Shown here one piece after another: positions 4,350 through 43,692 of a DNA stretch of 43,692 bases. The position numbers were made by a program, and so were the translations under genes. The notes under the pieces are model-generated. The model worked only from the letters and a program-made list of their open reading frames with translations. It searched no databases and was not told where the DNA came from. The stretch's first letter is position 1, and every line of letters starts with the position of its first letter. The stretch lies in NCBI GenBank assembly GCA_017429525.1, contig JAFROT010000019.1:1-43692 (forward strand), read 5' to 3'. This stretch comes from Bacteroidaceae bacterium (GTDB lineage Bacteria > Bacteroidota > Bacteroidia > Bacteroidales > Bacteroidaceae).

Positions 4350-4436
4350 CGGATAAAAGTGAAAAGAGAAAAGTGAAAAGTGAAAAATGAAAGGCTGAAA
4401 GTCGAAAAAGTGGGAAAAAGGCTTCGCCAGGAGTGT

Positions 4437-5939
<1,503 letters not shown>

Positions 5940-5953
5940 GATAGAAAAACAAT

Positions 5954-5991
5954 AAGCCTCTCCCCCATCCCCTCCCCTGTTAGGGAGGGGA
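5954..5991. repeat. GGGAGGGG palindromic repeat, copy c (left terminal inverted repeat of the DUF559 unit)
   Basis: The copy begins AAGCCTCTCCCCCATCCCC and continues into the stem CCCCTCCC-type/GGGAGGGG. It differs from the reverse complement of copy d (6491-6531) only at the two bases after CTCCCCC (AT against GA) across 38 bases. It sits 15 bases upstream of the thrC start. Confidence 0.85.
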
Positions 5992-6080
5992 GCTCAAGTC
6001 CTCTGGAAGTCAGCTGGTTATTTGCATACTTCAAATAAGAAGGAGCGCTTAGCTACAAGAGAGGGAGGAGAGTGAACTTG

Positions 6081-7826
6081 CTATTTGGGATGTGAAATTT
6101 TTAATTTAATATGTTTAATGACATTTGCAGTATCATAAACGACTTCTTCGTTAGTAAAGCGAAGTACTCGATAGCCTTTGTTTTGAAGCCAATCGGAGCG
6201 TTGCTGATCCTCGTTAGCTTGAGTAGGGGTGTTATGGTATTCGCCATCCACCTCTATAATTAGTTTTATAGATAAGCAAACAAAATCTGCAATATAGTCA
6301 CCTATAGGATGCTGCCTACGGAAGAGAACACCTAATTGTTTTCTTCTTAGCTCTTGCCAAAGGATATCCTCAGCGAGAGTGGACTCTTTTCGATTGACGC
6401 GTGCATAATCCTTTAGTATAGGATAAATATCTGATGAAGCAGTACGATAGAAGTTGGAAGCCTCTTTACCATCTTCTCCCGCTCGGCTCTTTCTCCCCTC
6501 CCTAACAGGGGAGGGGTCGGGGGAGAGGCTTGACTGACACATAAACAACCTGATGAACGCATCGCCCTCAAGCAAGCCGCAGGACCCTGCGACGGCTGCA
6601 TCCTCGTCGAAGGTCTGGACGCCATCGGGAGTCAAGCCAGGGGCAAAGATGGCGAAGGGAATGGGCTCGGCCGTGTGAGTGCGATGCTCGCAGGGCGTAG
6701 GATGATCGGGCAAAAGGGCAATGGCTACAGGCGGCAATGAGGGCAGGGCGTCGAGGATGCGCTGAATGAGGCGATGGTCGAGGTCCTCTATCGTACGGAG
6801 TTTGAGCGGTACGGAACCATCGTGGCCTGCCTCATCGCTGGCCTCAACGTGAAGGTAGACGAAATCGTCGCCGCTGCGCAGGGCTTCGATGGCGGCATCG
6901 GCCTTAGCCTCGTAGTCGGTATCGAAGAGGCCCGTGGCGCCAGGGACGTTGATGATGCGCAGGCCCGCGTAATGCCCGATGCCACGAATCAGGTCGACGG
7001 CCGTGATGACGGCGCCCCGACGGATTGCGGGGAAACGTTCGGTGAGCGGAACCATCTGCGGCCGATAGCCCCCACCCCACGGCCAGATGCTGGAGGCCAT
7101 GTCTCGGCCCTCGCGCGCGCGTTCCTTATTAATGAAGTGCTGCGGAAGGAGAATCTGGGAGCGGACGACGAGGTCGCGCAGCAGAGCAGCGGTCTCCTCG
7201 GCCTCGGGCATCTCAGCCTCAATCTGGTGCTGCCGCCAAGGTTGTCCGGGAATATCATGGGGCGGTGTACAGCGGAGATGTTTGTTGCCGCCGTGGACAA
7301 CGAGGAGATGGCGGTACTGCACACCCGTGTAGAAGCGTACGCGCCCCTCGTAGCGGGGGTCGGAAGCAAGACTATCGTTGAGGTAATCGATGAGCGGCGC
7401 AGCCTCTTCGGTCTCAAGGCGTCCGCAGGAATGGTTCTTGAGCGTCTCGCCCTCGATGCAGACGAAATTGCAGCGCAGCGCCAAGTCATCGGGCGCCAGC
7501 TCAACGCCTATGGCAGCGGCCTCCAGCGGGCCACGCCCCTCATAGACGACGTGCTGATCGTAACCAAGGATGCTGCTGTTGGCCACTTCGGAGCCCGGAT
7601 GGAAGCCATCGGGCACAGTCTTCAGACGGCCACATCGTCCATGGCACGCCAACCAGTCCATAGCGGGCGTATCGGCATATTGGAGGAGGGTCTTACCGCC
7701 AAGCGAGGGTACATGCCAATCGGCCATACCGTCGCCAAGAATGATGAGGTGGCGGATAGACCCACCCCCATCCCTCCCTGGCAAGGAGGGAGCAGAATGT
7801 ATTTGAGTGTCAAAAATATTATTCAT
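6081..7826 (-). CDS. apgM: ApgM-family protein (probable homoserine kinase of threonine operon) fused to a C-terminal DUF559 domain
   Basis: Residues about 24-430 are a cofactor-independent phosphoglycerate mutase of the ApgM branch (alkaline phosphatase fold): RHLIILGDGMADW holds the first metal ligand, GSEVANSSILGYD the nucleophilic serine region, and ASDEAGHDG and LLPDHPTPC later ligands. In Bacteroidetes this paralogue sits between thrA and thrC and has been proposed to act as homoserine kinase; a normal thrB is absent here, and gpmI supplies true mutase. The N-terminus is extended by palindromic repeat copy e (residues about 11-23). Copy d at about residues 431-444 joins a foreign DUF559 domain (about 459-581; KESTLAEDILWQELRRKQLG, FRRQHPIGDYIADFVC, IIEVDGEYH), an endonuclease-fold family related to Vsr. 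The start at 7826 is the only upstream ATG. Confidence 0.88.
   Translation of the reverse strand: MNNIFDTQIHSAPSLPGRDGGGSIRHLIILGDGMADWHVPSLGGKTLLQYADTPAMDWLACHGRCGRLKTVPDGFHPGSEVANSSILGYDQHVVYEGRGPLEAAAIGVELAPDDLALRCNFVCIEGETLKNHSCGRLETEEAAPLIDYLNDSLASDPRYEGRVRFYTGVQYRHLLVVHGGNKHLRCTPPHDIPGQPWRQHQIEAEMPEAEETAALLRDLVVRSQILLPQHFINKERAREGRDMASSIWPWGGGYRPQMVPLTERFPAIRRGAVITAVDLIRGIGHYAGLRIINVPGATGLFDTDYEAKADAAIEALRSGDDFVYLHVEASDEAGHDGSVPLKLRTIEDLDHRLIQRILDALPSLPPVAIALLPDHPTPCEHRTHTAEPIPFAIFAPGLTPDGVQTFDEDAAVAGSCGLLEGDAFIRLFMCQSSLSPDPSPVREGRKSRAGEDGKEASNFYRTASSDIYPILKDYARVNRKESTLAEDILWQELRRKQLGVLFRRQHPIGDYIADFVCLSIKLIIEVDGEYHNTPTQANEDQQRSDWLQNKGYRVLRFTNEEVVYDTANVIKHIKLKISHPK
6491..6531. repeat. 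GGGAGGGG palindromic repeat, copy d (right terminal inverted repeat of the DUF559 unit)
   Basis: On the minus strand it starts AAGCCTCTCCCCCGACCCC, the mirror of copy c. It is translated as SLSPDPSPVREG and forms the fusion joint between the ThrB-like enzyme and DUF559. Confidence 0.85.
7758..7791. repeat. GGGAGGGG palindromic repeat, copy e (N-terminus of the ThrB-like gene)
   Basis: The copy reads AGACCCACCCCCATCCC followed by the stem TCCCTGGCAAGGAGGGA. It provides residues about 11-23 (SAPSLPGRDGGGS) in front of the normal family start (RHLIILGDG), so the present start codon comes from upstream of the insertion. Confidence 0.8.
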
Positions 7827-7920: not shown

Positions 7921-10349
7921 TAAATATTTGCTATACTCATGATGTCGGCAAAGACGCCTGCAGCCGTGACGCTGGCGCCTGCGCCATAACCTTGGATGAG
8001 CATGGGATATTCGCGATAGCGCTCGGTGGTGAGCATGACGATATTGTTGCTGCCCTCGAGGCCATAGAACGGATGGCCCTTGGGAATCTCTGCGAGCGCC
8101 ACGCGGGCATGGCCGTCCTCATACTTAGCCACGAAACGCCAGCGCTTGCCTTCGGCTTCAAGGCGCGCACGGCACTGCTCGAAGTCGTCGTCGAGCGAAG
8201 GCAACGCCTGCCAGAAGCCCTCGACATCTCCCTTGAAGAAAGAATCGGGGATGAAGAGGCTGGCCTCTACGTCAGACTGCTCCAACTGATAACCCGCCTC
8301 GCGCGCCAGAATGACAAGCTTGCGGATGACATCGGTGCCGCTGAGGTCGATGCGCGGGTCAGGCTCGCTGTAGCCTTCGTCCTTGGCCATACGCACAGTC
8401 TGACTGAAAGGCAAGTCGGCACTGATCTTGTTGAAAATGAAATTGAGCGTGCCGCTGAGCACAGCCTCGATGCGCAAGATCTTATCGCCCGAATGGATAA
8501 GGTCGTTGATGGTGCGGATGATGGGCAGGCCGGCGCCGACATTGGTCTCGAAGAGGAATTTGACGCCACGGCGCTGAGCGATGGCCTTGAGTTCGCGGTA
8601 GTTCTCATAGTCGCTGCTGGCTGCGAGTTTGTTGGCGGCTACGATATTGACGTTGTGCTCGAGGAAGTCGTGGTAGAGCGCTGCCACCTCAGGCGAGGCG
8701 GTGCAGTCAACGAAGACGGAATTGAAGATGTTCATGCCGATGACTTCGTCGCGCAGACGTCGGACGTTGCTCTCGGGAGCCGACTGAAGCAACTCACGGT
8801 AGTGGTTGAGGTCGAGGCCTTCGCGGTCGAAGATGGCACGACGGCTACTGGCCAGACCAACGACATTCAGCTTCAGTCCCTGCTCGCGCTTCAGCTTCTC
8901 CTGCTGCGAGGCAATCTGTTCGATGAGCGACTTGCCCACCGTGCCAACACCACAGAGGAAGAGATTCAGGACCTGATACTCCGAGAGGAAGAAAGCGTCG
9001 TGGATGACGTTGAGGGTCTTGCGAAGGTACTTGGAGTCGACGACAAAGGAGATATTAGTCTCGGAAGCGCCTTGCGCGCAGGCAATCACGCTGATGCCCG
9101 AGCGCCCAAGCGTTCCGAAGAGTTTGCCTGCAATGCCAGGCGTATGCTTCATGTTCTCGCCCACGACGGCCACTGTGGCCAGACCGCCCTCGGCCTGCAT
9201 CGGGAACATGGCACCCGTCTCTATCTCCTTGGCGAATTCATCATTGAGGACTCGGCAGGCGGCAGCGGCATCCTGATCGCGCACGCCGATGCTGGTGCTG
9301 TTCTCCGACGAAGCCTGCGAGACCATGAAGACGGAGATGCCGTTCTCTGCCAGGACAGAGAAGATGCGACGGTTGACACCAATCACACCGACCATGGAGA
9401 GACCCGCTACGGTGATGAGCGTCGAACCCTTGATGCTGGAGATACCCTTGATGAGGCGGCTGTCGTCAACCACCTCTTTCTTGATGACGGTACCAGGCGC
9501 ATCGGGGTTGAAGGTGTTCTTGATGCGAATGGGGATGTTTTTGACACAAACGGGGTAGATGGTGGGAGGATACACGACTTTGGCACCAAAGTTGCACAGC
9601 TCCATGGCCTCGATGTAGGACAACTCAGGGATGACGTAAGCCGAGGAGATCACACGCGGATCGGCCGTCATGAAGCCGTCGACGTCGGTCCATATCTCGA
9701 GCACGTTGGCATCGAGTGCTGCCGCAATGATGGATGCTGTATAGTCCGAGCCACCACGTCCGAGGTTGGTGACCTCGCCGCTCGTGGCATCGGTAGAGAT
9801 GAAGCCCGGCACGAGCGAGATAGGCGGCACGCTGGTCCACGTCTGACGCACGAGTTGGTTGGTCAGTTCGCTGGCGAGGAGTGAACGCCCGCCCTTGACC
9901 TCGGTCTTGATGAACTGCCGGCTGTCATACCACCGAGCTCCATCAATGAGCGTAGCAACAATCTGGCTGCTGATGCGCTCGCCATAGCTGACGATGGTGG
10001 CCTGCGTCTTTGGCGACAGGTCGCGGATGAGGTAGACGCCCTGATAGATGGAGCGCAGCTCCTCGAGCATACGGTCGACCTCAAGGATGAGCTGTTGGCG
10101 CATGGCCCCCTCAGGGATGACAGCCTGAATCATCGCATGATGGCGCTCGGCCATCTCAGCATACTCGGTCAGGTAGGCGACATCACCAGAGACAGCCAGC
10201 TGCGAGGTTCGAATGAGTTTGTCAGTAATGCCGCCGAGAGCAGAGACAACCACGATGACGGGCTCCGTCTGCGACTCGACGATGTGCTTGACGTTGCGAA
10301 TGCTGTCAGCGGAACCAACACTGGAGCCGCCGAATTTGAGGACTTTCAT
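7920..10349 (-). CDS. thrA: Bifunctional aspartokinase / homoserine dehydrogenase
   Basis: This enzyme catalyses the first and third steps of threonine and methionine synthesis from aspartate. The aspartokinase domain (about residues 1-290) begins with KVLKFGGSSVGSADS; regulatory ACT repeats follow (about 305-460); the homoserine dehydrogenase domain (about 465-809) starts with the NAD(P)-binding LFLCGVGTVGKSLI and contains the catalytic-core stretch VLSGTLNFI and DPRIDLSGTDVIRKLVILARE. Its 809 residues are normal for the fused form. The ATG at 10349 is chosen because a longer TTG reading (10385) would start inside the -7 promoter box. It is first in the thrA-apgM-thrC operon, and a palindromic repeat abuts its stop. 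The ACT domains imply feedback control by threonine, as known for the family. Confidence 0.96.
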   Translation of the reverse strand: MKVLKFGGSSVGSADSIRNVKHIVESQTEPVIVVVSALGGITDKLIRTSQLAVSGDVAYLTEYAEMAERHHAMIQAVIPEGAMRQQLILEVDRMLEELRSIYQGVYLIRDLSPKTQATIVSYGERISSQIVATLIDGARWYDSRQFIKTEVKGGRSLLASELTNQLVRQTWTSVPPISLVPGFISTDATSGEVTNLGRGGSDYTASIIAAALDANVLEIWTDVDGFMTADPRVISSAYVIPELSYIEAMELCNFGAKVVYPPTIYPVCVKNIPIRIKNTFNPDAPGTVIKKEVVDDSRLIKGISSIKGSTLITVAGLSMVGVIGVNRRIFSVLAENGISVFMVSQASSENSTSIGVRDQDAAAACRVLNDEFAKEIETGAMFPMQAEGGLATVAVVGENMKHTPGIAGKLFGTLGRSGISVIACAQGASETNISFVVDSKYLRKTLNVIHDAFFLSEYQVLNLFLCGVGTVGKSLIEQIASQQEKLKREQGLKLNVVGLASSRRAIFDREGLDLNHYRELLQSAPESNVRRLRDEVIGMNIFNSVFVDCTASPEVAALYHDFLEHNVNIVAANKLAASSDYENYRELKAIAQRRGVKFLFETNVGAGLPIIRTINDLIHSGDKILRIEAVLSGTLNFIFNKISADLPFSQTVRMAKDEGYSEPDPRIDLSGTDVIRKLVILAREAGYQLEQSDVEASLFIPDSFFKGDVEGFWQALPSLDDDFEQCRARLEAEGKRWRFVAKYEDGHARVALAEIPKGHPFYGLEGSNNIVMLTTERYREYPMLIQGYGAGASVTAAGVFADIMSIANI

Positions 10350-10382
10350 GTGTGTGCGTATAATGCGTGAAGATATGGGCTG

Positions 10383-10390
10383 CAAAAGTA
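10383..10390 (-). promoter_or_regulatory. -7 box TACTTTTG for thrA
   Basis: A TAnnTTTG match on the minus strand 34 bases before the thrA ATG. It overlaps the alternative TTG start and so decides against it. Confidence 0.65.
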
Positions 10391-10461
10391 ATGAATAAAA
10401 GCCAAAAAAGCGCTTTCCACGTCAAATAATTACTTCATGTCCCTCAAAAAAACAATTTATG

Positions 10462-12342
10462 TCAACTCTCCGAGCTGTCGCCCAGTGAGATTTCCTCTTC
10501 CACAAACATCTCATGCAGCACTTTTCCCAAGAGCGTAGCGGGAATCTCAGGCAAGCGTATCTGTAGGGCCGAACTGGGATGATGGCGGTCGATGAAATCC
10601 AAGATGCGCCGACGCACCTCGGCCTCATCGAGCGTCGGCACGGCTCCCGCATGGGTGCAGTTGTCACATTGTCCACAGTCGCTCTGAGCCTCCTCGCCGA
10701 AATAACGGAGGAAGAATCGGCTGCGACATTCGTCGGTCTCGAGATAACCAATCATCGTCTGGACGCGCTTGGTCAGCTCACGCTTGCGGTCGGCATAGAC
10801 ATTAGGAGGCAGCACTATCTCATCGCGCTCGACCCGGCGCTGGGTGAGGGTCAAGTAAGGAATATATTTGCGGGGGATGAACTGCAAGATATGGCGACGG
10901 CTCAGCTCAATCAACTGCTCGGTGACGGCCATTGCAGTAACCCCCAGCGCATGTGCCATCTCGTCCTCATGGATGGTCGCATATTCGCTGAAAATACCAG
11001 TGCAAGAGCGCAACAAGTGATGAAGGACCCGATCGGCAAGAGGAGGCAGCTGCACGCCGTAGAGGCTGTCGCGTCCGACACTCATCATGACGCGACTGTG
11101 GTTCTCCTCGGCATCAGTCCACTCGATGAATCCAGCCCGAGAGAGCAGTCCAAGTGCGTTGTAAGCACGTACGGGGAAGTGGCGGAAGCGGCGGCAGAAC
11201 TCCTCGAGGTCGAACTCGCGAGTGACGCCCTTTCCGTCGCCCATCGCCATTTGCAAAAAGCAACAGGCGTCCTCGTAGACTTGAGCCACATACTCTTCAG
11301 GCGGGAAAGTGTCTTCGATGCGACGATGCAAGATGCCCGCAGAATTCTTGTCGTAGAGCAGCACAGCATGGGCCGTAAGCCCATCGCGGCCAGCACGACC
11401 GGCCTCTTGGAAATAAGCTTCGGGCGAATCGGGGACGTCGGTATGGACGACCAGCCGGACATCGGGCTTATCGATGCCCATCCCGAAGGCATTCGTGGCC
11501 ACCATCACGCGTACGCGCCCCTCCTGCCAGGCTTTGGCGCGCTCGTTCTTCTCGAGATTGGTGAGGGCTGCATGGTAGTGGGTTGCGGTGATGCCCTGTG
11601 AGGAGAGCCAAGTCGCCAGCTCACGTGTTGCCTGACGGCTACGCGTGTAAACGATAGCTGAACCAGGCAAGGAGCGCAACAGGTGCTCGACCTCCTGTTC
11701 TTTGGTCGAGACGATGCGTTCGACGGAATAGATGAGATTCTTTCGCTCGAAACTCATCTTCAAGACGTTGGGCGAACGGAAGAGGAGCTGCCGCTGGATA
11801 TCTTCGACGACCTCAGGCGTGGCCGTAGCCGTCAGCGCAAGAACAGGCGTTTCAGGCAGGAGGCGACGGATGTCGGCAATCCGTGTGTAGGACGGGCGGA
11901 AATCATAGCCCCACTGCGAGATGCAGTGAGCCTCGTCGACGGTGATGAAGCTGACGTGCATGTGAGCGAGCTTAGCCCTGAAGAGTTCTGAGCCAAGTCG
12001 CTCGGGCGAGACATAAAGGAATTTATAGTTGCCGAAGATGCAGTTCTCGAGCGCTGTGATGACTTCGTCGCGGGTCAATCCCGTGTAGACGGCCGCTGCC
12101 CGTATTCCTTTCTGGCGAAGATGCTCAACCTGGTCCTTCATCAGCGCAATCAAGGGGCTGATGACCAGACACAGACCTTCCATCATGAGGGCTGGCACCT
12201 GAAAGGTAATGCTCTTGCCACCCCCAGTAGGCATAAGGCCAACGGTATCGCGGCCACTGGCGATGCTCTCGATGATTTCCTGCTGGATACCACGAAACGA
12301 GCTGTGACCGAAAAATTCTTTAAGGATGGAGAGATGGGTCAT
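10462..12342 (-). CDS. recQ: ATP-dependent DNA helicase RecQ
   Basis: A superfamily 2 3'-5' DNA helicase involved in recombination and replication restart. Walker A is GLMPTGGGKS (about residues 35-44), the Walker B box is DEAHCISQWGYDFRPSY, and motif VI is QEAGRAGRDG. The RecQ zinc-binding site is in the cysteine cluster CRSRFF...CGQCDNC near residue 560. The 626-residue protein ends after a short, divergent tail, and no clear HRDC domain is seen. The ATG at 12342 overlaps the recJ stop by four bases (ATGA), implying translational coupling of two repair genes. Confidence 0.95.
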   Translation of the reverse strand: MTHLSILKEFFGHSSFRGIQQEIIESIASGRDTVGLMPTGGGKSITFQVPALMMEGLCLVISPLIALMKDQVEHLRQKGIRAAAVYTGLTRDEVITALENCIFGNYKFLYVSPERLGSELFRAKLAHMHVSFITVDEAHCISQWGYDFRPSYTRIADIRRLLPETPVLALTATATPEVVEDIQRQLLFRSPNVLKMSFERKNLIYSVERIVSTKEQEVEHLLRSLPGSAIVYTRSRQATRELATWLSSQGITATHYHAALTNLEKNERAKAWQEGRVRVMVATNAFGMGIDKPDVRLVVHTDVPDSPEAYFQEAGRAGRDGLTAHAVLLYDKNSAGILHRRIEDTFPPEEYVAQVYEDACCFLQMAMGDGKGVTREFDLEEFCRRFRHFPVRAYNALGLLSRAGFIEWTDAEENHSRVMMSVGRDSLYGVQLPPLADRVLHHLLRSCTGIFSEYATIHEDEMAHALGVTAMAVTEQLIELSRRHILQFIPRKYIPYLTLTQRRVERDEIVLPPNVYADRKRELTKRVQTMIGYLETDECRSRFFLRYFGEEAQSDCGQCDNCTHAGAVPTLDEAEVRRRILDFIDRHHPSSALQIRLPEIPATLLGKVLHEMFVEEEISLGDSSES

Positions 12343-14060
12343 TCCTCGCTCGGTCTGATGTCCTCAATCTGCAGTTGTACCTCGCTGCGCTTGTGTGAGT
12401 TCTCCTCGACACTATAACAGATGTCGAACGCACGCTTGCTCTTGATGAAGCGCGCCTGCGAACTCTGGCCGAAGGCAATACCGCTGACGACCGCCGAGCT
12501 CTTGTTGTCCACCAATTCCAGCTTGATATGTTCCTGATGGTGGCCAACCACCTTGCTCGTGCCGTAGTCATAGACATGCTCGGTACAGAAGAGAGGCTTC
12601 GGATTATCAGGGCCGAAGGGGGCGAAGCGACGCAGATCGTTGTAGAAACGATGGTTGATATCCTTGAAGTCGAGCAAGCCGTCGATGTTCAACTCGGGCT
12701 GGATTTGCGAGTCGAGGATGTGCTCGTTGACGTAGGCCTCAAAGCGCTCGGTGAACGCCTCGACATTCTCAACACGCATCGAGAGGCCAGCGGCATAGGT
12801 ATGTCCGCCGAAGTTCTCAAGCAAGTCGCGGCACGAGTCGATGGCCTTGTAGACATCGAAGCCTCCGACGGAACGTGCCGAGCCCGTAGCCATATTGTCG
12901 GTTCGCGTGAGTACGACAGCAGGGCGCGTGTAGACCTCAGTCAGGCGCGAAGCAACAATACCGATGATGCCCTTGTGCCATTCCTCGTTGTAGATGACGA
13001 TGGCGCGCTGCTCATGGCTGGGATCCAGTTGCTCTACGATTCGATTGGCCTCCTGCGTCATCTCCTTGTCGAGGTCCTTGCGTTGGTCATTGTAGGCATT
13101 GATCTGCAGGGCCATGCGATGGGCACGGACGGGGTCACGCTCTACGAGCAGAGCTACAGCCTCGCTGCCGCTCTGCATACGCCCAGAGGCGTTGATGCGC
13201 GGTCCAATCTTGAAGATGATGTCGCTCATCGTGATGTCGCGATCCATGAGACCGCAAACCTCGATGATGGCCTTCAGGCCCACACTCGCCTTGGAGTTGA
13301 TCTGCTTGAGTCCATGATAGGCCAACACGCGGTTCTCACCCAGGATAGGGACGATGTCCGATGCTATGCTGACAGCACAGAGGTCCAACAGCGGCACCAG
13401 CTGCGAGAAGGGGATCTGATTGTCGATGGCAAAAGCCTGCATCAACTTGAACCCCACGCCGCAGCCCGAGAGATGCTCGTAAGGGTAGGTAGCATCCGTG
13501 CGCTTGGCATTGAGGATAGCCACGGCGGGCGGCAACACATCATCAGGAACATGGTGGTCGCAGATGATGAAATCGATGCCTTGTTCCTTGGCATAAGCTA
13601 TCTCCTCGACCGCCTTGATGCCGCAGTCGAGGACAATGATGAGTCCCACACCAGTCGATTTAGCAAAATCCACGCCTTTGTGGCTGACGCCATATCCCTC
13701 CTCATAGCGATCGGGGATATAGAAGTCGATGTTGGTCGTGAATTGCTGCAAGAATCGGTAGACCAACGCCACGGCTGTGCAGCCGTCGACGTCATAGTCG
13801 CCGTACACCAGAATGCGTTCCTTACGCCCGAGTGCTCTGTTAAGGCGGTCCACAGCCACCCTCATATCGCGGAACAAGAAGGGGTCAAGGAGCTCGCTCA
13901 GCTGCGGGCGGAAGAAGCGCCGCGCATCGGCCGCCGTGGTGATACCACGGTCCAAGAGTAGCCGTCCGAGCGCAGGGTGAATACCTACGTCGGCAGCCAG
14001 TTGCTTAGCTGCTTCGGCACGTTCGGGTGTGGGCGGTTCGTAGTTCCATTTATAATTCAT
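12339..14060 (-). CDS. recJ: Single-stranded-DNA-specific exonuclease RecJ
   Basis: A 5'-3' single-strand exonuclease of the DHH family, acting with RecQ in recombination and mismatch repair. Manganese-binding motifs are visible: VYGDYDVDG (about residues 81-89), IVLDCG, and the DHH motif in IICDHHVP. The DHHA1 part contains GHTYAAGLSM (the RecJ GGH-like motif), followed by an OB-like C-terminal region. The 573-residue length is normal. It is the first gene of a recJ-recQ pair with a -7 box 52 bases upstream. Confidence 0.96.
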   Translation of the reverse strand: MNYKWNYEPPTPERAEAAKQLAADVGIHPALGRLLLDRGITTAADARRFFRPQLSELLDPFLFRDMRVAVDRLNRALGRKERILVYGDYDVDGCTAVALVYRFLQQFTTNIDFYIPDRYEEGYGVSHKGVDFAKSTGVGLIIVLDCGIKAVEEIAYAKEQGIDFIICDHHVPDDVLPPAVAILNAKRTDATYPYEHLSGCGVGFKLMQAFAIDNQIPFSQLVPLLDLCAVSIASDIVPILGENRVLAYHGLKQINSKASVGLKAIIEVCGLMDRDITMSDIIFKIGPRINASGRMQSGSEAVALLVERDPVRAHRMALQINAYNDQRKDLDKEMTQEANRIVEQLDPSHEQRAIVIYNEEWHKGIIGIVASRLTEVYTRPAVVLTRTDNMATGSARSVGGFDVYKAIDSCRDLLENFGGHTYAAGLSMRVENVEAFTERFEAYVNEHILDSQIQPELNIDGLLDFKDINHRFYNDLRRFAPFGPDNPKPLFCTEHVYDYGTSKVVGHHQEHIKLELVDNKSSAVVSGIAFGQSSQARFIKSKRAFDICYSVEENSHKRSEVQLQIEDIRPSEE

Positions 14061-41426: not shown

Positions 41427-41500
41427 CGAATGACAAATCACGAATATAAGTCACCTATGTCCTATGTATCCTGTAATGGTATATTTTATTCGTCATTTGT

Positions 41501-41570
41501 CATTCATCATTCGTCATTCATCATTCGTCATTCATCATTCGTCATTCATCATTCGTCATTCATCATTCGT
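41501..41570. repeat. Five perfect 14-bp tandem units (CATTCATCATTCGT)
   Basis: Identical units start at 41501, 41515, 41529, 41543 and 41557. A related inverted segment, GAATGACGAATGACAAAT, starts at 41421 just inside the GH20 gene end, so the RNA could fold over the whole gap. The array sits 25 bases before the longest possible start of the sigma factor gene. Confidence 0.9.
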
Positions 41571-41670
41571 CATTAAATAATCCCCCTCCCCTGCCATGCC
41601 TCGACATTTAACATCTTTTATAGGTAAACTTTTTGGCCGTTCTGCGTTATATGGGCAGAAAGACCAAGAA

Positions 41671-42630
41671 ATGACAACTATGGAAGATCATCAGATGACC
41701 GAGCAAGAGTTCGCGCAGTTGGTGGAGCGCCTGCGCCCACGGCTGATGCAGATGGGACGTGAATTCTTCGGCTCCGACACCGAGGCCGACGAAGTCGTGC
41801 AGGAGACTTGCCTCCGGGCATGGGGCGTTCGCGACAGGTCGACGCTCACCGATGCCTACATCCTGCGCATCGCCCGCAACGTCTGCGTATCGCTCTGGCG
41901 GGGACAGCGCTTGCAGATGATGGCCGCCAGTGCCGTCGCCGACAACCTCTCCGCCGATGCCACCACGCCTCAAGAGGAACTGGAGGAACGCGAGAACTCC
42001 GAGTGGCTGCAGTCGCGCCTGCAGCGCTTGCCCAAAGCTGAGCGCGAAGTGTGGCAGCTCTTCTACGACGAAGGGCTGACCGTTGAGGAGATTGCCAAGG
42101 CGCGAGGCATCTCCGTGGGCACGGTGCGCAAGACCATCTCCAACGTGCGGAGCACCTTGCGCAAGGACGTGCGCCGCCATTTCTTCAACCTGCGCCATCT
42201 GCTTATCTTCATCCTCATCGCCCTGGCCACAGGTATCGGCGTGGCTGCCATCATCAGCCCGCGAGGTCACGTGCGCGGCGTCATCCAGAAAGTGTTCCGT
42301 CTGCCCGAGGATACCACCATCTACGACAATGTAGAGGTGATGCCCACTTACCACGGCGACATCGAAGCCCTCTACCGTCACATCGCTGCAGAGATCCACT
42401 ATCCCGAAAGCGCCATGGCCGACAGCGTGCAGGGACGTGTCATTGTACGCTTCGTAGTAGAGAAGGACGGACGCCTCACGAACTTTGAGATCAAGCGCAC
42501 GCCTGACGACCGCCTCAGCGCCGAAGCCATCCGCGTCCTGAAACTCACAGAGCCGTGGATATCTGCCAAGAACAAGGGGCAGGACGTCCGCTGCCACTTC
42601 GTCATGCCCATCGTCTTCCGTCTGAATTAG
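41671..42630 (+). CDS. ECF-type sigma factor fused to a transmembrane helix and TonB C-terminal domain
   Basis: One continuous frame encodes three parts. An ECF sigma-70 module: region 2 at about residues 10-82 (DTEADEVVQETCLRAWG, ILRIARNVCVSLWR) and region 4 at about 118-167 (LPKAEREVWQLFYDEGLTVEEIA...GTVRKTISNVRSTL). Then one transmembrane helix at about 174-195 (LRHLLIFILIALATGIGVAAII) preceded by basic residues. Finally a TonB C-terminal domain at about 230-319 (YPESAMADSVQGRVIVRFVV, DDRLSAEAIRVLKL, MPIVFRLN). The predicted topology puts sigma in the cytoplasm and the TonB domain in the periplasm. The ATG at 41671 is favoured because upstream sequence looks promoter-like (TTTTTGG...CGTTATAT); an in-frame ATG at 41596 would add 25 residues. 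Standard ECF factors end at about 190 residues and TonB proteins lack sigma domains. Confidence 0.88.
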   Translation: MTTMEDHQMTEQEFAQLVERLRPRLMQMGREFFGSDTEADEVVQETCLRAWGVRDRSTLTDAYILRIARNVCVSLWRGQRLQMMAASAVADNLSADATTPQEELEERENSEWLQSRLQRLPKAEREVWQLFYDEGLTVEEIAKARGISVGTVRKTISNVRSTLRKDVRRHFFNLRHLLIFILIALATGIGVAAIISPRGHVRGVIQKVFRLPEDTTIYDNVEVMPTYHGDIEALYRHIAAEIHYPESAMADSVQGRVIVRFVVEKDGRLTNFEIKRTPDDRLSAEAIRVLKLTEPWISAKNKGQDVRCHFVMPIVFRLN

Positions 42631-42903
42631 ACGACTTGATTCCTATAAAAGCAGTTCTCCATGCAGGGAGTGAGCAGAGCTCGATCGCAGCGGTAAAAAG
42701 TACTTAGATAAAACCTGTTAACGCGGTTTCACGCAAGTCTCTGATTCAGCAGCAAAAGTAGCTAATCCCAACTACATAGCGCATCCCGCCAATACAGAAT
42801 ATCTGCCGTTGACATGAAAGCATACTAATTTGACGCTATTTCGTCCTATCTATAAGGCAATGGTATAGCAGCAGCCCCGCCCCTCTCTTGTAGTTTTTCC
42901 CCC
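42631..42903. other. Intergenic gap after the sigma-TonB gene
   Basis: No gene, tRNA or clear terminator is seen. Composition drops in GC compared with the preceding genes. Confidence 0.5.
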
Positions 42904-43452
42904 AAAAAAATCAATCACTACATCACTCACTATTGAGAACCAGCAGATTAGGAGTGATTGATTGCTAAAAAAATGCGTCACTTAGTGATGGAATTTAATT
43001 TTTTTAACGCGTTCATCCAATTTTCAACTGGATAAAAACTACAGCATCTCCCGCCCGATGAATGCCTGCGACGGGTTCATCGCTTATCCATTGCTTGTCC
43101 ATGACTACGGCATGGTGCCCGCTTCAGTGTAGAGCTGGACCATTTTCAGCGTAGACCTGAGCCTTTTCGTCTATAGGTGTTCAGTTTTCCAACCGGTTGG
43201 AAAACCGACATCACATAGATGCCATCAGTTTTCCAATTGGTTGGAAAACCGAATTCATACTGTCAAGCCGTTCACGGGCAACGTCTGAGGCGCAGTTTAC
43301 ATGATAGCGCATAGCTCACAAAAAGAGTTAAATTTGGGTATCAACCCCCATTTTTGAGGCATAATCTATCACTAAATCACCCATCTATCACTGCATAAAT
43401 CACTCGTAATCGCCTGGTTCTCAGTAGTGAGTGATGGAGTGATTGTTTTTTT
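42904..43452. mobile_element. Putative MITE-like 550-bp unit with long imperfect inverted repeats
   Basis: The left arm (42904-42958) and right arm (43398-43452) are imperfect inverted repeats of about 55 bases; over the 47-base core containing TGGTTCTCA and TAGTGAGTGATG I count five mismatches. Both arms end in runs of A or T. The interior has no ORF of note but contains twin palindromes (43184-43249). The unit stands directly before an insertion sequence. Non-autonomous element status is inferred from structure alone. Confidence 0.45.
43184..43249. repeat. Two GTTTTCCAA...TTGGAAAAC palindromes 44 bases apart
   Basis: GTTTTCCAACCGGTTGGAAAAC (43184-43205 in total, perfect palindrome) and a near-copy with AATTGG at its centre (43228-43249). 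Both are preceded by TCA and followed by CGA. They could be paired protein-binding sites or RNA hairpins. Confidence 0.7.
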
Positions 43453-43519
43453 ACGGAAAAAAACGTGAGTTCGGTATAAGAAATATGCTTGAAAAATTGT
43501 AGGAGTGCGAATTATTTTG

Positions 43520-43566: not shown

Positions 43567-43692
43567 ATGACGGCTGCAAATATAATTGAAATTTTTTGTT
43601 TTCTCGACGAATTCTGCAAATATTTTGAGCCAGAACTTAAAAAACGTGCGATTTCCACCTCCGGTAAGCTGCATCGGAACCGTCCCGGACGC
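43567..43692 (+). CDS. IS982-family transposase (partial, continues beyond window)
   Basis: The first 42 residues are visible. IIEIFCFLDEFCKYFEPEL followed by GKLHRNRPGR matches the N-terminus of IS982-type DDE transposases, which begin with an EIF-x-x-x-DEFC helix and an HRNRP-type motif. The catalytic residues lie beyond the window edge, so intactness cannot be judged. It has its own -7 box. The left end of the insertion sequence should lie between about 43453 and 43520 but was not pinned down. Confidence 0.85.
   Translation, partial: MTAANIIEIFCFLDEFCKYFEPELKKRAISTSGKLHRNRPGR

Follow-up and report, generated by a model that had tools for sequence, protein, structure and literature searches.

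A stretch of 43,692 nucleotides (the window) from a Bacteroidaceae bacterium related to rumen species encodes an ECF σ factor that continues through a single membrane helix into a TonB C-terminal domain (TonB_C). The fusion is no artefact: it is a conserved signalling protein, confined in our searches to a single genus, and confidence in the protein itself is high. Cell-surface signalling is understood through anti-σ factors that read a dedicated signalling domain of the receptor; the best reading of the fusion is a cell-surface-signalling σ factor in which TonB_C has replaced the FecR-type sensor. As a whole, the proposal that this membrane-tethered σ factor reads an outer-membrane receptor through TonB_C, its periplasmic sensor, and drives its own gene together with an operon appears to us probable.

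The frame is open from 41596 to 42630 (+ strand) with no interruption. On its 319-residue version, Pfam finds Sigma70_r2 (43.1 bits; cut-off 24), then Sigma70_r4_2 (42.3 bits; cut-off 25.7) and then TonB_C (55.9 bits; cut-off 24.6). Numbered on 316 residues (41680..42630), σ region 2 spans residues 14-77 (41719..41910) and region 4 residues 108-159 (42001..42156); they are followed by a transmembrane helix at about residues 174-192 (42199..42255; hydropathy and structure model), a short linker of about 40-45 residues (42256..42390) and TonB_C at residues 238-315 (42391..42624; Pfam and model), predicted to lie on the periplasmic side of the membrane. A single hydropathy peak, at residue 174, is present in 18/18 uncut copies, the window's included. 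Pfam and hydropathy thus agree with the sequence-only reading, which had described both σ regions, one membrane helix and TonB_C in one frame, yet its start at 41671 has to be moved: the frame is interrupted by a stop codon in four relatives (L034, L035, L038 and L043) at the position of this ATG, so the gene most likely starts at ATG 41680, with 41671 and 41596 as alternatives. Extending the frame back to 41596 makes it overlap a DNA element (below), and 18 of 43 distinct element sites have a stop in the same frame within 60 nt; given these stops and a variable spacer between element and gene start, we rejected the idea that the conserved stretch 5′ of the gene encodes an N-terminal protein extension.

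Could the fusion be an error of assembly or annotation, or a gene in decay? The host assembly is fragmented (56 contigs, 86% complete), and the sequence-only reading had itself allowed that a stop or frameshift might separate the two parts, or that homologues might always be two genes. A scan of GTDB contigs returned 20 relatives: 18, all in other assemblies, keep the same uninterrupted order of domains at 64-87% identity (one, L044, is cut by a contig end), and the remaining two match the TonB_C part only. Together with the window's copy, Sigma70_r2 and Sigma70_r4_2 are found by Pfam in 19/19 and TonB_C in 18/19, the miss being the cut copy. Counting the genus set, which overlaps heavily with the scan, manual matching gives about 20 distinct loci including the window, and these are single frames. 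Both ends of the protein are under similar purifying selection, with median dN/dS of 0.118 for the σ part (125/153 pairs) and 0.117 for TonB_C (85/153 pairs), compared to 0.261 for the membrane segment (130 pairs) and 0.23 for the linker (88 pairs), pairs with zero or saturated synonymous difference being left out. The order of domains across genomes and dN/dS of about 0.12 at both ends refute an accident, to which we give next to no credence.

The distribution of the fusion is narrow. Within the genus of the window, a search at E 1e-40 matched 14/139 genomes, with two matches each in two of them and, in one (G341), a match cut at residue 259; no fusion spanning both parts turned up in 294 other genomes of the order at E 1e-32 or in 394 other genomes of the phylum at E 1e-26, in searches which, like those of the genus and for the receptor, scored few candidates per genome, and which a remote fusion could escape. 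The source records of the 18 relatives name uncultured Bacteroidaceae, Prevotellaceae or Bacteroidales; goat or sheep rumen appears in four of them, goat omasum in one and water deer colon in one.

The surroundings of the gene in the window contain no adjacent anti-σ gene, in line with the sequence-only reading: the upstream neighbour is a GH20 gene, and on the downstream side 1,062 bases remain before the contig end. Within this downstream segment, 100-base inverted arms, 77% complementary and 372 bases apart, flank two palindromic 33-base repeats (42893-43464), an arrangement that looks like a small non-coding mobile element. An open frame at 43567-43692 leaves the contig end; it has no Pfam match and, by eye, resembles the beginning of a transposase, which would account for the contig break.

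A bipartite promoter-like element, TTTAACATCTTTTATRGGTAAA-N15-GCGTTATA (41607..41651, + strand; 45 bases), is common to fusion genes, receptor operons and M23-like/S41 genes, a sharing in which our confidence is high. The element or a close variant precedes 19/19 fusion genes examined, and 10 of 14 loci with the operon have a second copy (matrix score >15) between fusion and operon. In the window genome, there are three sites at two or fewer mismatches, versus one for a reversed control pattern: one site lies before the fusion and two lie in tandem (one mismatched) before an unlinked operon. Under a strict pattern, the element is found in 3/61 relatives, exactly the three with the fusion; in 1/295 genomes of the order, where the fusion likewise occurs once and both belong to the window's own genome; and in 19/139 genomes of the genus, at 32 sites, all with a spacer of 15 (12-18 allowed). 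The reversed control, searched strictly, had zero matches in the 61 relatives, the 295 order genomes and the 139 genus genomes. Two of the 32 sites yielded no locus; the other 30 precede a fusion gene (10 sites), a receptor/GLPGLI operon (11), an M23-like/S41 gene (8) or a contig end (1). At three of the 10 fusion sites a contig end truncates the gene, in two cases ahead of the TonB_C part, and two of the eight M23-like/S41 genes have 32-34% identity to the reference.

Does the element follow the σ factor or the operon? Across the genus, it is present in 14/14 genomes that match the fusion, versus 5/125 others (Fisher 2e-15, with genomes counted as independent though related). Two of these five (G347 and G364) carry the σ part of a fusion-like gene that a contig end truncates, G423 has only 81 nt of contig beyond the element, and searches of G334 and G432, which are 75% and 86% complete, returned no fusion. 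A receptor match of at least 57% identity (partial in G402, G338 and G334) is present in 22 genomes, and among them the element occurs in 12/12 with the fusion and 1/10 without (Fisher 2e-5, relatedness again disregarded); the element therefore tracks the σ factor rather than the operon. Because fusion and element are both limited to one genus in these searches, common descent accounts for part of their co-occurrence. What the sequences show directly is the fusion and its conservation, the element that it shares and the co-occurrence of the two; going further, we infer that the σ part reads the element, the two blocks of which would be its -35 and -10 contacts. ECF promoters with CGT-type -10 motifs are known.

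At 22 + 8 bases, the conserved block exceeds an ordinary ECF promoter in length, and the element may therefore be bound by another regulator; the fusion would then be one target among others. By eye, Crp-like genes stand just upstream of the fusion in four loci (L043, L047, L048 and L050), and a Crp-like protein is a candidate for such a regulator; however, the window's fusion has no Crp-like neighbour, and of ten genomes that have the receptor and in which no fusion turned up, nine are also without the element. We rate control by a different protein as unlikely.

Two further features overlap or adjoin the element. An inverted repeat (41632..41668, + strand; arms 41632-41645 and 41655-41668) overlaps it and, by eye, is not seen at operon-class sites; it might provide a layer of control specific to the fusion gene. 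Across the 17 of 19 fusion-gene sites used for the test, 80.7% of cells pair, versus 35-50% when the arms are slid, L035 and L038 being excluded for divergence inside the right arm. The idea of a conserved RNA hairpin was rejected: two-sided changes number 5 versus 4.3 in shuffles, 207/500 of which are as high, and covariation is weak. The leader likewise holds no convincing Rfam RNA, the seven matches all being microRNA models far under their cut-offs. Immediately 5′ of the element, a 14-base repeat stands in 6.2 tandem copies (41488-41574).

In 14/18 relatives, the fusion is followed by a gene for an outer-membrane-receptor-like protein (~910 residues) and/or by GLPGLI genes, as called by eye, representatives having been run through Pfam and NCBIfam to check the names. 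The four exceptions are L037 (an M23-like/S41-type gene), L038 (neither), L043 (another σ/anti-σ/receptor set) and L044 (contig end). In the window genome, the operon lies on another contig, where genes for a secreted TonB_C protein and six GLPGLI proteins accompany that of the receptor; other genes and no fusion occupy the preceding 6 kb, so the separation is real rather than the product of a contig break. A secreted TonB_C domain without a membrane helix is encoded inside the receptor operon of L063 (6405-6815), and the operon's secreted protein could act as a soluble competitor or adaptor for the TonB_C of the fusion. An apparent receptor-TonB_C fusion in L048 (1081 aa) was discarded; an internal signal-peptide-like stretch, identified by eye, suggests that a frame change has merged two genes.

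The receptor begins with a CarboxypepD_reg domain in 12/13 members and matches barrel family PF14905 in 5/13 (Pfam); its Plug match is weak (2/13 members, best E 0.015). Its TonB box is assumed from position. Its structure model (mean pLDDT 41.5) is too poor for use, no solved structural relative was found by profile, and a receptor tree, mostly lacking resolution, was too weak to serve as a sign of transducer swapping. In work on Bacteroides thetaiotaomicron cited in PMC12204202, a CarboxypepD_reg-type domain is implicated in the interaction of a receptor with TonB, as far as the excerpted text goes. The GLPGLI proteins are present in 18/80 sampled genomes of the order; in the parts of PMC9603813 consulted they appear just as entries among regulated genes, and the partial texts found under that name give them no function. 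The third element-bearing gene encodes a protein in which the S41 match is above the Pfam cut-off and the M23 match below it. In two genomes, the double-domain gene with its element (L066 8465-10543; L065 7023-9236, - strand) adjoins genes for BlaI and an M56-TonB_C protein. The S41 part belongs to the family of Prc, and its place in the putative regulon might suit a feedback on processing.

How does the protein span the envelope? An AlphaFold2 model of the fusion (19-row alignment; mean pLDDT 76.3, pTM 0.44) has an ECF σ fold in front and a confidently modelled TonB_C. Foldseek searches of the PDB match the σ part to SigW, SigH and SigE structures and the C-terminal part to TonB C-terminal domains, including 6i97_D and 9dc4_T, both solved with receptors. 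The fusion thus has the TonB C-terminal domain of an energy transducer and is without the long periplasm-spanning linker: 38-42 residues separate membrane helix and TonB_C in five fusions, whereas in the same genus eight of nine TonB proteins of ordinary appearance have 117-122 (the ninth gave no helix call). With ~40 residues instead of ~118, reach to the outer membrane is not assured; the N-terminal domain of the receptor would have to cover much of the distance, and this is the main physical worry. The same difference in length makes direct competition with TonB, which the sequence-only reading had entertained, doubtful. A tree of TonB_C domains, mostly without resolution, did not reveal where the fusion's domain came from, though the five fusions group apart from ordinary-looking TonB; one M56 protein (L120) falls among the ordinary TonB rows.

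A short linker also suits a different ligand. TonB_C might sense the cell wall or periplasmic proteins, such as GLPGLI proteins or the secreted TonB_C protein that the window genome's operon encodes, and not the receptor itself; the C-terminal domain of E. coli TonB binds peptidoglycan, and in several genomes the element precedes an M23-like/S41 gene. Against this unlikely alternative stands the recurrence of a TonB_C transducer beside the receptor operon in three different architectures (below). Our preferred reading, in which TonB_C senses the receptor, is held with moderate confidence. The earlier suggestion that receptor occupancy is sensed finds partial support in context: the operon downstream in 14/18 relatives, the shared element, and a separate σ factor with a membrane-anchored TonB_C protein next to the same receptor in three genomes.

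The preferred mechanism would run as follows. TonB_C would sense the state of an outer-membrane receptor (CarboxypepD_reg plus β-barrel) co-encoded with GLPGLI proteins, most likely by contacting an exposed TonB box or the receptor's N-terminal domain. The signal would cross the single membrane helix, probably through stepwise proteolysis that frees the σ part, which would then initiate transcription from the shared element at its own gene and at the receptor/GLPGLI operon, and in some genomes also at the M23-like/S41 gene. Proteolytic release is plausible by analogy to IutY, a hybrid σ/anti-σ protein (ECF243) of aerobactin cell-surface signalling in Pseudomonas putida, which, in the sections of PMC5411451 drawn on here, is processed by Prc and RseP, freeing σ when the receptor signals; confidence in the details of release is low. 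In which direction would the signal act? In the Fox system, the receptor's signalling domain is described, in the available part of PMC11637429, as binding the anti-σ factor when signal is absent and shielding it from proteolysis; if this model holds for the fusion, receptor-bound TonB_C would be the "off" state.

Alternatively, σ might be active while tethered, as part of a one-component membrane regulator in which TonB_C positions or dimerises the protein and no proteolysis takes place. TonB C-terminal domains can dimerise, Pfam finds no anti-σ domain in the fusion, and the model draws an unbroken helix (residues 146-192) that would join the last helix of σ region 4 to the membrane segment. 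However, model confidence is poor at residues 186-208 (pLDDT <50), and IutY, which has the same topology, requires cleavage by Prc and RseP (PMC5411451, as excerpted); a σ factor working from the membrane is thus improbable, and we retain release by proteolysis.

TonB_C is wired differently at other loci of the same kind. In 3/139 genomes of the genus (G013, G016 and G342), all of them lacking both fusion and element, overlapping genes for a separate ECF σ factor and a membrane-anchored TonB_C protein stand directly before the same receptor, 79-81% identical to that of the window genome (L113 5177-6374, - strand; L112 5334-6576, + strand; L121 2328-3519, - strand). The membrane partner (208-225 residues) consists of ~40 N-terminal residues with no Pfam family, one helix, a linker (37 residues, measured in L113) and TonB_C, and may be an anti-σ factor. 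The σ factor of G013 has no blastp match to the σ part of the fusion at E 1e-4, so this separate pairing probably arose independently. In a third arrangement, a second GLPGLI/receptor cluster of the window genome (L145, G000:C30) lies behind genes for BlaI (4411-4767) and an M56-TonB_C protein (4771-6471; TonB_C match in two pieces), followed by four GLPGLI genes and the receptor (9991-12630); in G360, a distant receptor likewise follows BlaI and M56-TonB_C. Three transducers sharing TonB_C thus stand at this kind of locus.

The pattern does not extend to the whole order: in 20 stretches from 17 of the 18 GLPGLI-positive genomes, searched with home-made profiles, a TonB_C transducer beside GLPGLI and receptor genes was found once, in the window genome itself. 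Within the genus, none stands beside the operon in the stretches read from five genomes with the receptor and no fusion (G003, G373, G381, G395 and G419); two of these (G003 and G419) have small exported TonB_C proteins by the operon, of 145 and 167 residues, and in a sixth genome of this type, G386, the contig begins 117 nt before the gene. Tentatively, TonB_C may be a receptor-reading module in this genus, with the engagement state of the TonB box itself as the transcriptional signal, a reading that we rate as possible and short of probable; its three outputs, again with somewhat less than even confidence, would be a fused σ factor, a separate σ factor with a membrane partner, and a BlaI/M56 repressor-peptidase pair, all at one family of GLPGLI/receptor loci.

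How new is this architecture? That it is undescribed, as the sequence-only reading held, stands insofar as no published σ-TonB_C protein was found in the portions of the literature searched, although an ECF group with such a tail may already be classified elsewhere; known σ-membrane hybrids, among them IutY and Dma3, qualify its novelty. IutY likewise consists of an ECF σ factor, one membrane helix and a periplasmic sensor and is encoded beside an outer-membrane receptor gene, as are most fusions (PMC5411451 and PMC8999054, in part). Its periplasmic part, however, is a cell-surface-signalling anti-σ domain, whereas the fusion has TonB_C in its place, and neither a FecR nor an STN family appears among its Pfam matches up to E 1, HMMER filters discarding most matches above about E 0.1. 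The receptors also differ, the CarboxypepD_reg N-terminal domain setting that of the fusion apart. Since a FecR-type sensor was looked for and not found, the fusion may work like IutY and is not a member of its family. Compared with cell-surface signalling systems, the regulator has no FecR or STN match; a receptor-like gene that shares the element, with CarboxypepD_reg as its N-terminal domain, adjoins most loci as a candidate for the signalling receptor.

Other systems share single features. Dma3 of B. thetaiotaomicron, also from Bacteroidota, has an N-terminal σ domain on a membrane protein, but Dma-family proteins have a disordered tether and their own C-terminal β-barrel where the fusion ends in TonB_C (PMC13088901, excerpted text). 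The actinobacterial groups ECF48, ECF52 and ECF53 carry C-terminal membrane extensions with expected proteolytic release; their extensions contain zinc-finger domains and one carbohydrate-binding domain, and the consulted sections of PMC8999054 describe no outer-membrane receptor for them. In the VreA/VreR/VreI (PUMA3) system of Pseudomonas aeruginosa, cell-surface signalling involves a TolA/TonB-like C-terminal domain with a proposed outer-membrane contact, carried, unlike that of the fusion, by a separate periplasmic protein and not by σ itself (PMC2729926, in part). The BlaI and BlaR1-type M56 pair of the window genome and G360 also ties a cytoplasmic output to TonB_C beside GLPGLI/receptor genes, with a repressor and a peptidase as output in place of a σ factor.

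The contact between receptors and their inner-membrane partners, and its role in signalling, is still under revision, according to the available part of PMC11637429. If the proposed reading is true, a σ factor with its own TonB domain would read the energised or occupied state of a receptor directly, in a single protein. The fusion would then be a variant of cell-surface signalling with a self-contained putative regulon, and this defined regulon and its element would offer a way into the GLPGLI/receptor systems of Bacteroidales.
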